This document shows, piece after piece, positions 6,658 to 11,727 of a stretch of 25,906 bases of DNA (positions are counted from its first letter, which is position 1; every line of letters starts with the position of its first letter). The DNA comes from a virus: IMG/VR virus record IMGVR_UViG_3300042472_000428, positions 1-25,906 of that record; one strand, given 5' to 3'. The translations under genes were made by a program, and so were the position numbers. The notes under the pieces were generated by a model. It was not told the origin of the DNA and did not search any database. It saw nothing but the letters and a program-made list of their open reading frames with translations.

Positions 6658-6888
6658 TTAGTCGCTGTAGCGTGTTGATTGCCCTGTCCAGATGTGTGTC
6701 CCGTCGTGCTGCGCGTGCTCGACTGCAAACGACTGGCCGCCGAAGCCGTGGATGTTCGCGATGTCTTCGACCGCGAGCCGTGTTAAGGCGTTTTGAGATG
6801 TGATTTCGAACGTAAATCGTTCGACGTTGCCGCTGCTGGAGAGGTGATCTCTCGCACCTTCTACCGTGATTGTATTTTGTATTTTCAT
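6658..6888 (-). CDS. Hypothetical small protein (76 aa)
   Basis: I do not recognise this protein. It reads like a compact alpha/beta domain (KIQNTITVEGARDHL ... VERFTFEITSQNALTRLA) with a Gly/His-rich second half. The leader before the ATG is A/T-rich (CTAAAAAAAT) and has no Shine-Dalgarno sequence. It lies in a run of short genes before the initiator. Confidence 0.55.
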   Translation of the reverse strand: MKIQNTITVEGARDHLSSSGNVERFTFEITSQNALTRLAVEDIANIHGFGGQSFAVEHAQHDGTHIWTGQSTRYSD

Positions 6889-6894
6889 ATTTTT

Positions 6895-7077
6895 TTAGCG
6901 GAACCACTTCGCGAAGTGTCCGAAATTCCTAGGTTGCGTTACGTTGTTATTTTTGCCGCACACGTCGCACTGGCCGTAATGCCAATTCGCAATGCGCGTG
7001 GCCTTGCTGCCGTGTTTTACGCCGCAGTCCCAGCACGCCCAGGATGGGTAAGGACGTTCTTCTTTTTTAGTTTTCAT
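6895..7077 (-). CDS. Small zinc-ribbon protein (60 aa)
   Basis: Two knuckles, CWDCG (about 15-19) and CDVCG (about 37-41), form a zinc ribbon. This matches a widespread family of roughly 60-residue phage proteins with a conserved RPYPSWACWDCG start and a FGHF.KWFR end. The role is unknown; nucleic-acid or protein binding is likely. It is coupled to the upstream gene by an ATGA at 7074-7077. Confidence 0.7.
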   Translation of the reverse strand: MKTKKEERPYPSWACWDCGVKHGSKATRIANWHYGQCDVCGKNNNVTQPRNFGHFAKWFR

Positions 7078-7271
7078 TTCTTTTTTTTGGTTTGGTTGGT
7101 CTCTGCAATGTATCTCTCAACCGCCTGCATGTGAGCCGTTGCTAGTGCTCGACCGTCCGCGTCATCCGAATAGCTCGTATCGTATCGCGGCATCGGCAAG
7201 TTGCGAGACAGGCGGAACCCTATCGGGACTTCGGCCATGCATATTACTAAGCGGATCGAAAGCGGTTGCAT
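7074..7271 (-). CDS. Hypothetical small protein (65 aa)
   Basis: I do not recognise this protein. The ATG at 7271 is supported by one of the few clear Shine-Dalgarno sequences in the window (AGGAAA, about seven bases upstream). This favours it over the internal Mets at residues 12 and 27. The sequence is polar and ends in a Lys-rich tail. Confidence 0.55.
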   Translation of the reverse strand: MQPLSIRLVICMAEVPIGFRLSRNLPMPRYDTSYSDDADGRALATAHMQAVERYIAETNQTKKKK

Positions 7272-9353: not shown

Positions 9354-10291
9354 GCGTTTGTCGCCCTCCATTCCAAAGCCGTATTTACAAACTGATCGAC
9401 GCGGCCCGCCACTCTGTGGAGATACTCTGGTTCGCAGTCGCGCCACGTCTGCTCGCTCGTCAATACGTTGCGAGAAATCAAGAATTGATTCACTGCGCCT
9501 TCGTGCTCCGCGAGTCGTGCCTTCCAATCCTGCGCTGGCGGCTGCTCTGGCTGCTCTGCTGACGCCGGCATTGCTGCTGATACCGAGACAGGCTCAAACA
9601 AATGTGCCACCGACTCCCAAACTAGCGGCAACTCTTCTGCCAACCCGCTGCGGGTCTTGGCGTCGTAGGCCGCGCTGTGCGTTGTTAGGATGATGCGCTC
9701 CTTGCCGCCGATGCCTTTGCCTCGGCCAGTGTCAGTGGTCGAAACTTTGGTCTTAAATCGCAAGAACCAAAGCTCATCCGCAAACTCCTTGAGCAGCGGC
9801 GAGCACTGCTTTGAGAGTTTGAGTTCGTAGCGGTCGTATGCTGCCAACGCGTCCGGTGCTTCGAACTTGTGGATTTTACTGTGGGCGATCAGCACTACGT
9901 TTTTTCCGGCTTCGATGAGCGCATCAACGCTAGACAGCATCCGCGCCATCCGCTCGGCCACCATCACCCAGCCCTTGCCGTATCCGAAGTCTTCGATGCT
10001 GGTTTTCTTGGTAGTCGCCAGCAGGTCTTCGATACAGAGCCGTTCGGCCCAGTCAGCGGAGTCGATGACGATGGTTTTGTAGTCGGAGCTGCGGCACTCT
10101 GTCAGCGAGTCGGTCAACTGCTTCCAACTGCCAATGTCGCATCGGTCAACGTCCAAGTGGCTAGTGCCCTGCTCGATGTCCAGGAAGAGCGGCTTCGGGA
10201 ATTGAGCCGCGAAGGTTGATTTGCCGACGCTTTCGACGCCGTAGATTACTACGCGCTGGGCGCGTTGTTGTTTGCCTGATGTAATTTTCAT
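9350..10291 (-). CDS. Sak4-like RecA-fold ATPase (AAA_24 family)
   Basis: This 313-residue protein is probably a phage single-strand annealing ATPase. Walker A is at 18-26 (GVESVGKST), Walker B at about 73-78 (TIVIDS), and a later strand reads NVVLIAHSKI (sensor-like). The short RecA-like core with a divergent Pro/Gln-rich C-terminus matches AAA_24 (PF13479), which includes Sak4. Downstream lie the PD-(D/E)XK nuclease and the SSB-like DUF669 protein, forming a recombination module. A generic phage nucleotide-binding protein is the alternative name. Confidence 0.8.
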   Translation of the reverse strand: MKITSGKQQRAQRVVIYGVESVGKSTFAAQFPKPLFLDIEQGTSHLDVDRCDIGSWKQLTDSLTECRSSDYKTIVIDSADWAERLCIEDLLATTKKTSIEDFGYGKGWVMVAERMARMLSSVDALIEAGKNVVLIAHSKIHKFEAPDALAAYDRYELKLSKQCSPLLKEFADELWFLRFKTKVSTTDTGRGKGIGGKERIILTTHSAAYDAKTRSGLAEELPLVWESVAHLFEPVSVSAAMPASAEQPEQPPAQDWKARLAEHEGAVNQFLISRNVLTSEQTWRDCEPEYLHRVAGRVDQFVNTALEWRATNA

Positions 10292-10782
10292 TTGTTATTA
10301 ATTTTTTTGATTTCGTTGAATAATGGGCCGAACTCAAATAGTTCAGCGAGTTTTGAATATCTGACTTGGAATGCAATGAGTTCACTTTTTGCGTTTGCGA
10401 TGACCTGCCGTGTTGCCTCTGCATCGTCCATTATGTTATTGACATGAATGAAACTACCGCGCTTTGCGTTGTCGATTGTGCCATCTGGCTCGAGGTGTTT
10501 GATCGGCCAAAAAGCGCGAACCGTCAGCGTCTTTTGATCCGATGTGGTGATCTCTACTTTAATCCTACGAATAAGATCGTAGGCTTGGGCTTCGCGCCAC
10601 TTGATAGCGGCTTCAGTGTCGTCCCACTCAAAGTATTTGTGCAGACTGCTGAGTGGGTTTGCTGCTTCCGTCAGGAGCGTTCGTGGGTTGAGTCCTGCCG
10701 GACGACTCGCGATTGATTCCAACTGTTTTTTGATCTCATCGTTTTTCGATTCGATCTCGTTTTCTTCTTTTATCAGTTTCAT
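10288..10782 (-). CDS. Conserved phage protein of unknown function (164 aa)
   Basis: A charged coiled-coil-like start (KEENEIESKNDEIKKQLESI) leads into a SRPAGLNPRTLLTEA ... PLSSLHKYFEWDDTEAAIKWREAQA segment. I recognise this as recurring in phage proteins beside recombination genes, but I do not know its function. The second half looks alpha/beta. It is coupled to the Sak4-like gene by an ATGA and is the first gene after the GCCNN array. Confidence 0.65.
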   Translation of the reverse strand: MKLIKEENEIESKNDEIKKQLESIASRPAGLNPRTLLTEAANPLSSLHKYFEWDDTEAAIKWREAQAYDLIRRIKVEITTSDQKTLTVRAFWPIKHLEPDGTIDNAKRGSFIHVNNIMDDAEATRQVIANAKSELIAFQVRYSKLAELFEFGPLFNEIKKINNK

Positions 10783-10808
10783 TTTCTATTTTGTTTGTTG
10801 TTTTGCGA

Positions 10809-11099
10809 TCAATTTATACCCCGCTCTATCGCTGCGGTTTGTGCTATGCCTGCCTTGCCGCGCCCCGCCGTGCCGAGCCATGCCGCGCCACGCCCAGCCT
10901 GCCATGCCGTGCCGCGCCCGGCCAGGCCGCGCCCCGCCGCGCCATGCCTGCCTTGCCTGGCCCAGCCGCGCCCTGCCGCGCCTAGCCCAGCCTGCCTTGC
11001 CAAGCCACGCCGCGCCCCGCCTCGCCTAGCCTGCGTAGGGTTGCAGTCGGATTCCACGGAATCCGCTGCGGGTTGTATTGTCGCCGTGGCGAAAGTCAT
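10809..11099 (-). CDS. Possible Ala/Arg/Gly-rich protein encoded across the GCCNN array (96 aa)
   Basis: An ATG at 11099, one base after the stop of the upstream gene, opens a frame that crosses the whole repeat array without a stop and ends at 10809. The first 30 residues are ordinary (MTFATATIQPAADSVES...). The rest is low-complexity, such as ARRGGARRGLARQ, with a rough 5-residue rhythm because 15 bases make 5 codons. There is no Shine-Dalgarno sequence. GC-rich repeats stay open in many frames by chance, so this may be a non-coding DNA element instead. Confidence 0.25.
   Translation of the reverse strand: MTFATATIQPAADSVESDCNPTQARRGGARRGLARQAGLGAAGRGWARQGRHGAAGRGLAGRGTAWQAGRGAAWLGTAGRGKAGIAQTAAIERGIN
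10848..11032. repeat. Degenerate pentanucleotide array: 38 GCCNN units
   Basis: This 185-bp tract consists wholly of units beginning GCC. There are 33 pentamers (GCC plus two variable bases) and 5 tetramers, each exactly GCCT. I parsed every base and no unit breaks the rule. On the transcribed (minus) strand it reads NNGGC repeats. It fills the gap between the glycine-rich-tail gene and the Sak4 module. It is not a CRISPR array, having no spacers of the right size. See findings. Confidence 0.9.
11048..11065. repeat. Perfect 18-bp dyad beside the GCCNN array
   Basis: Arms CGGATTCC and GGAATCCG are separated by two bases (AC on the plus strand). The spacing is too tight for a comfortable RNA hairpin, so a binding site for a dimeric protein is more likely. 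It lies 16 bp from the array, on the promoter-proximal side of the leftward operon. Confidence 0.55.
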
Positions 11100-11100
11100 A

Positions 11101-11727
11101 CTATTCGTTAGCGAGGGTGAAAGTGCCCCAGCCCATGCCGGCTGACATCTTGGAGTCTGGGCGACCTTCGCCGATACCCACTTGCTGCCCAACTCGCTGG
11201 AGTAGGTTGGCAACATCCGTCGAAGTGAACTGGTCAGAATCATAGCTGATGTTCACATCAGCAGACCAAGGCCAAAATTTAGCCCGCACCCGGATGTCGC
11301 AGACGCCTGTCGCGTTTCGAGCGTGCATGATATGTGGCTCCGACGTTCCGATGATTTTTATCAACGGGACGGCGTCCACTTTATCGAATCCATCGCCCTC
11401 GACAAAGATCGAGAGCTTGGCCAGCGTCATTTTAAACCCTACCAATCGGCAGGCTGAAATAAGACCGTTGCGAAATGCTCCGGCTGGGATGCCTTCCCAC
11501 CCTTCGCTGCTAACGTGCTTTGCTGCCACGAAGTCTGCGTCAAAGTCGCGTGCCTCTTTGGCTTTTTTCTTGTTTGCTTGGCTTCCTAGCTTGTGCTTTT
11601 CGATCATCGTGTTGATCGCCTTCTCCGAAAATCGGAGTTGGATGTAGGGTGCCGTGCCGACGATGTTAAATCGTGCCTTGACGATGTTAGGCGCTTTGAT
11701 TGTTACGTTTTCAGTTTCTGGTTTCAT
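11101..11727 (-). CDS. Conserved phage protein with RAMP-like glycine-rich C-terminus (208 aa)
   Basis: The ATG at 11727 is chosen over a longer open frame because that extension lies over the resolvase gene. The protein has a short beta-strand start (KARFNIVGTAPYIQLRFS), a Lys-rich stretch (45-60), EGWEGIPAGAFRNGLISACR (75-94), and a C-terminus with GIGEGR (184-189) and GMGWGTF (197-203). I recognise the overall pattern as a recurrent phage family of unknown function. The glycine-rich end resembles the G-rich loop of RRM-fold RAMP proteins, so nucleic-acid binding is plausible but unproven. Confidence 0.7.
   Translation of the reverse strand: MKPETENVTIKAPNIVKARFNIVGTAPYIQLRFSEKAINTMIEKHKLGSQANKKKAKEARDFDADFVAAKHVSSEGWEGIPAGAFRNGLISACRLVGFKMTLAKLSIFVEGDGFDKVDAVPLIKIIGTSEPHIMHARNATGVCDIRVRAKFWPWSADVNISYDSDQFTSTDVANLLQRVGQQVGIGEGRPDSKMSAGMGWGTFTLANE

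Follow-up and report, generated by a model that had tools for sequence, protein, structure and literature searches.

A degenerate GCCNN array in an uncultivated phage genome is very probably the guide RNA of a VIPR system and may hold several guides

Analysis of the window, a stretch of 25,906 nucleotides comprising positions 1 to 25,906 of the IMG/VR virus record IMGVR_UViG_3300042472_000428, identified a repeat array that very probably serves as guide RNA (vrRNA) for a VIPR system encoded by the phage. A preprint of April 2026 (PMC13142463) presented VIPR as a possible precursor of CRISPR, made up of a RAMP-like Vipr protein and vrRNAs in which GGY and NN alternate ahead of a structured 3' tail. 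The DNA is chosen by the NN pairs only, double-stranded DNA being read with one base skipped between pairs; silencing of targets was shown for the SUSP1 VIPR and natural targets indicate conflict between phages (PMC13142463). In the present analysis we observed the repeat rule, a Vipr homologue with its modelled fold, linkage of gene and array, compensatory changes in the tail and whole blocks common to different arrays. The features concerned are as follows:

10288..10782, minus strand: phrog_15946, a candidate VIPR accessory (vap) gene; of 17 loci with a homologue, 16 have it within 400 bp of the array
10805..10847, minus strand: predicted 3' tail of the vrRNA, an H-type pseudoknot; compensatory changes across related tails
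10834-10837 with 10821-10824, minus strand: tail stem 1; CCGC pairs with GCGG
10828-10832 with 10805-10809, minus strand: tail stem 2; loop GCGAU pairs with downstream AUCGC
10848..11032, minus strand: putative vrRNA guide tract, (NNGGC)n in RNA sense; exact unit parse and the GGY/NN consensus of PMC13142463
11033..11064, minus strand: 5' flank with palindrome GGATTCCGTGGAATCC and ...CTACGC immediately before the first AGGC; kept among close relatives
11101..11727, minus strand: vipr, 208 aa, RAMP (Cas7/Csm3-like) protein, phrog_4652, just upstream of the array; profile match and structure model

The tract at 10848-11032 parsed fully into 38 GCC units, namely 33 GCCNN pentamers and 5 tetramers that were all GCCT, with 9, 9, 8 and 7 pentamers separating successive GCCT units. 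Chaining GCC at a spacing of 4-5 nt gave at most 38 units in the window in comparison to 2-3 in 60 dinucleotide shuffles of the window, while shuffling of the 185 bp tract itself (1000 shuffles) gave chains of at most 8. The rule of GCC plus two variable bases, noted for this tract in a preliminary description of the DNA, is exact. The NN letters were varied, with 15 of the 16 dinucleotides present and GC the most frequent (8/33). On the gene-bearing minus strand the tract reads as (NNGGC)n, so that the RNA strand is NNGGC throughout. Rfam returned no match in the window or in loci L083, L099 and L132, and a literature search on the repeat pattern itself yielded nothing relevant.

The preliminary description also anticipated similar tracts in other phages, and a search of IMG/VR with (GCCNN)x7+GCC gave at least 120 matches, with high NN entropy in 93 of the 120 loci among the matches listed. 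The mirror pattern CCGNN gave 82 matches in IMG/VR, where none of 80 loci had that entropy and almost all were simple repeats. In bacterial and archaeal genomes the matches were mostly simple repeats, only six loci being degenerate. Array tetramers were almost always GCCT (136 of 141; 327 GCCT in a larger set), and the triplets counted over 267 arrays were GCC (5352), ACC (207) and TCC (68), every other form occurring fewer than 30 times. The main departure, GCC to ACC, corresponds to GGC to GGU on the RNA strand and agrees with the GGY rule.

The array and the vipr gene are linked. ORF clustering showed phrog_4652 to be the main recurring array neighbour, present in 42 of 94 array-bearing loci, within 400 bp of the array in 31 of these 42 and on the strand opposite to GCC in 41. 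A gene-first search with the window Vipr recovered 37 viral loci in IMG/VR, 35 of which carried an array directly after vipr; the contigs of the other two (L282 and L292) end at that point. A stricter pattern allowing 4-5 spacing only was passed by 29 of the 37 Vipr loci, and none of 17 control contigs fetched by an unrelated pattern carried such an array. The 32-member family profile matched PDB entry 36pp ('SUSP1 Vipr protein') at E=1.7e-36, phrog_4652 was assigned in 31 of the 32 members, and the window Vipr alone showed a weak direct single-sequence similarity to 36pp (E=0.0019). The structure model of the window protein, modelled alone, had a pLDDT of 88.9, and its best Foldseek matches, at TM ~0.4-0.5 and E from 1e-5, were backbone subunits of CRISPR class 1 such as Csm3. 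A structure search with the phrog_15946 model found nothing matching in the PDB.

Directly 3' of the array the sequence reads AUAGCACAAACCGCAGCGAUAGAGCGGGGUAUAAAUUGAUCGC in RNA sense. The tail stem in relatives was either CCGC/GCGG or CCGG/CCGG, and the helix formed by the loop covaried in array-bearing relatives (GUCAGU/ACUGAC, UGGAGCG/CGCUCCA, GGCGG/CCGCC, GAGCGC/GCGCUC and ACUGG/CCAGU). Over 21 distinct loops the loop-to-downstream helix averaged 4.57 bp in comparison to 2.84 with partners swapped, the best of 2000 swapped-partner permutations being 3.95, below the observed value; the tail set (n=30) still includes a few chance matches at non-VIPR loci, such as L144, L218, L232 and L248. 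These compensatory changes indicate an RNA of minus-strand polarity.

An array with a pseudoknot tail of the window type was also located in a Chthoniobacterales MAG (L141:3301-3390). A phrog_4652 search of that assembly found no Vipr, and the array is possibly an orphan vrRNA or the genome incomplete. Because an array with the same tail sits in this MAG, the host is probably a verrucomicrobium.

Comparison with the type II VIPR of SUSP1 (PMC13142463; PDB 36pp) showed several common traits, including a Vipr RAMP gene, GGY/NN repeats with variable NN, carriage by a phage, a pseudoknot 3' tail, which is reported for the SUSP1 clade, and a small neighbouring gene, in the window the candidate accessory phrog_15946. 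The window tail was found independently, and its likeness to the SUSP1 tail is one of having a pseudoknot; phrog_15946 may correspond to one of vap1-6. In SUSP1 there are four separate vrRNAs of ~100 nt, of which one precedes the genes and three follow them, whereas the window has one continuous tract with four AGGC-delimited blocks and a single tail. Resemblance to CRISPR class 1 extends to the predicted fold of the window Vipr, which is like that of the backbone subunit (Csm3/Cas7) that accompanies crRNA, and to a store of several short guides with turnover between near-identical genomes. Unlike CRISPR class 1, the window Vipr is a protein of 208 aa, modelled alone, and the guide code runs for only 2 nt between interruptions. 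No CRISPR-type array of direct repeats and spacers was found near the tract, and a scan of eight neighbouring proteins for cas genes yielded only the Vipr RAMP.

The window tract is divided by AGGC into four NN blocks of 9, 9, 8 and 7 that have one tail in common:

10852..10896, minus strand: putative guide block 1 (last in RNA); plus-strand order TT GC CC GT GA AT GC AC CA
10901..10945, minus strand: putative guide block 2; plus-strand order AT GT GC CG AG GC CC GC AT
10950..10989, minus strand: putative guide block 3; plus-strand order TT TG CA GC CT GC TA CA
10994..11028, minus strand: putative guide block 4 (first in RNA); plus-strand order TT AA AC GC CC TC TA

In close relatives, separators of AGGC or ATCGCAGGC gave blocks of 6-11 NN with a mode of 8, and over all arrays the separator spacing had a standard deviation of 3.7 in comparison to 9.2 under random placement. 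PMC13142463 gives 9-16 repeats per vrRNA, and the block lengths here (7-9 NN, in a tract of 38 units overall) lie at or below that range. The 35 array-bearing loci held 30 distinct arrays, though most of their Vipr proteins were 94-100% identical. Window block 1 recurred in L266 and in L267, whose array otherwise differs, and the block GT CC AG TT GA AA TT TG was common to L283, L287 and L289; some blocks of relatives were near-variants, one NN apart. Pairs of distinct blocks with four NN in a row in common numbered 26, against a shuffle mean of 10.9 and maximum of 19. In L083 two blocks of the same array have TT GC CT AA in common, at the end of one and the start of the other, as if their targets were adjacent. 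The occurrence of near-identical Vipr proteins with different arrays, together with whole blocks in common, makes the blocks look like separate, exchangeable guides, which, judging from these sequence comparisons, would be stored before one tail. We tentatively interpret the system, with somewhat less than even confidence, as a multiplexed VIPR: one transcript would be divided at AGGC or ATCGCAGGC separators into exchangeable guides, which near-identical phages would gain, lose and swap blockwise. This would amount to a guide memory like that of CRISPR but lacking known acquisition genes.

Alternatively, the tract may belong to a VIPR guide RNA and yet function undivided, as a single long guide, or in the form of 'staggered' vrRNAs that overlap, with AGGC only a change of register. 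The single tail serving all four blocks is consistent with this, as is the mention of staggered arrays with overlapping vrRNAs in PMC13142463, but narrow separator spacing of 6-11 NN in close relatives, exchange of whole blocks at separators and the two L083 blocks with their common four-NN run, as if of neighbouring targets, make such a layout possible but rather unlikely. The separator and block layout goes beyond the main text of PMC13142463, and may already be described in that preprint or be equal to its staggered-array class.

The preliminary description had listed three roles for the tract, of which an RNA element fits the covarying tail, the GGY triplets and the Vipr link. The other two, loading or annealing of Sak4/DUF669 recombination proteins at the tract and a recombination hotspot with related phages, were not supported; the neighbour that recurs in the array loci is Vipr. 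Sak4 does lie two genes downstream in the window, but when its co-occurrence with arrays was checked over the 94 array loci a homologue was present in only 7, against 42 with Vipr, so the gene neighbourhood of arrays is far from random without pointing to Sak4. The fetched stretches, which are parts of contigs only, point towards arrays without Sak4 and DUF669, and a DNA site needs neither a covarying RNA pseudoknot nor the GGY rule; we consider a binding or annealing site very improbable. That the tract is a functionless satellite born of slippage, or a translated repeat, is scarcely credible despite its high G+C content, its repetitiveness and the rarity of stop codons in any frame. The flanks are kept while the NN differ among phages with 94-100% identical Vipr, and the mirror triplet CCGNN yields only low-entropy repeats. 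The kept GGY triplets, the covarying tail and the Vipr link also speak against a satellite, and the earlier view that the constant part is selected was right. The tetramers shift frame, blocks and separators do so freely between phages with near-identical Vipr, and no conserved reading frame or amino-acid pattern was seen across relatives.

Under the VIPR guide RNA reading, the minus strand would be transcribed to give the order vipr, (NNGGC)n, pseudoknot tail and candidate vap gene. Vipr subunits, as Cas7-type RAMPs, would coat the RNA, each gripping a GGC and leaving the NN pairs exposed; these would recognise double-stranded DNA, passing over one target base between successive pairs. The target would then be silenced; a rival phage or mobile element is its most likely location, and the AGGC separators most likely delimit four guides of 7-9 NN side by side before one tail. 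By analogy with the SUSP1 and P. fulva systems, for which PMC13142463 gives experiments, we propose that the array is transcribed and bound by Vipr, and that it silences targets read by the 1-nt skip code. The window and its 37 relatives form a ready-made series of uncultivated phages that are nearly identical but differ in their guides, and comparison of their arrays across sites and dates would allow a direct test of how VIPR guides are acquired. Further members, including arrays with no nearby Vipr gene, could be sought through the tail pseudoknot and the separators.

None of our scans established targets of the window guides. Exact 1-nt-skip patterns of window blocks 1 and 2 had no match in IMG/VR, nor did the block common to L270 and L271 or the merged L083 guide have an exact target match there. 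A test of the skip rule within the fetched loci, a database of only ~2 Mb, showed no excess at any skip length, and a 16-base pattern from L283 gave 17 matches, near the estimated chance number; in 9 of these the skip base fell on the third codon position. Block 1 had no match with up to 1 mismatch in 197 genomes of the order of the Chthoniobacterales MAG, and block 2 had one exact and nine one-mismatch matches in 384 genomes of the same class. The exact match and one other fell in genes read as pilT. The genome with the exact match had no block 1 match at up to 2 mismatches, the genome of the other pilT match had one 2-mismatch match to block 1, and block 3 matched in neither; given these results, the matches in pilT were treated as due to chance. 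Competitors of an uncultivated kind may be unsampled.

Other array layouts were noted among the fetched loci. In L021 (1986-2351) another type of separator, GCCNTGAAC, occurs every 6-10 pentamers instead of GCCT, and in L128, L051, L015, L123 and L033 tracts of ~10-20 units are split by short repeated linkers or hairpins (for example AAGGAACG in L128), a layout unlike that of the window. In L032 (~6850-7200, RNA on the minus strand), L120 and L017, minihelices made up of a tRNA T-arm (GGTTCGANTCC) and an acceptor-like stem (for example GGGGCGG...GCGTGGTTCGACTCCACGCCGCCCC) lie between or after guide tracts and are perhaps signals for guide-RNA cutting by tRNA-processing enzymes; the main text of PMC13142463 makes no mention of them. 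A type II hammerhead ribozyme (Rfam RF02276) was located ~3 kb from the array on a VIPR-array contig (L118:7940-8010), and hammerhead-interspersed arrays are mentioned in PMC13142463. Finally, a ParB-like protein ('SLYPR...DGFHR') was a second recurring array neighbour, lying within 400 bp of the array in 5 of 5 loci (L087, L117, L124, L054 and L159), and may be the accessory of a different VIPR type.
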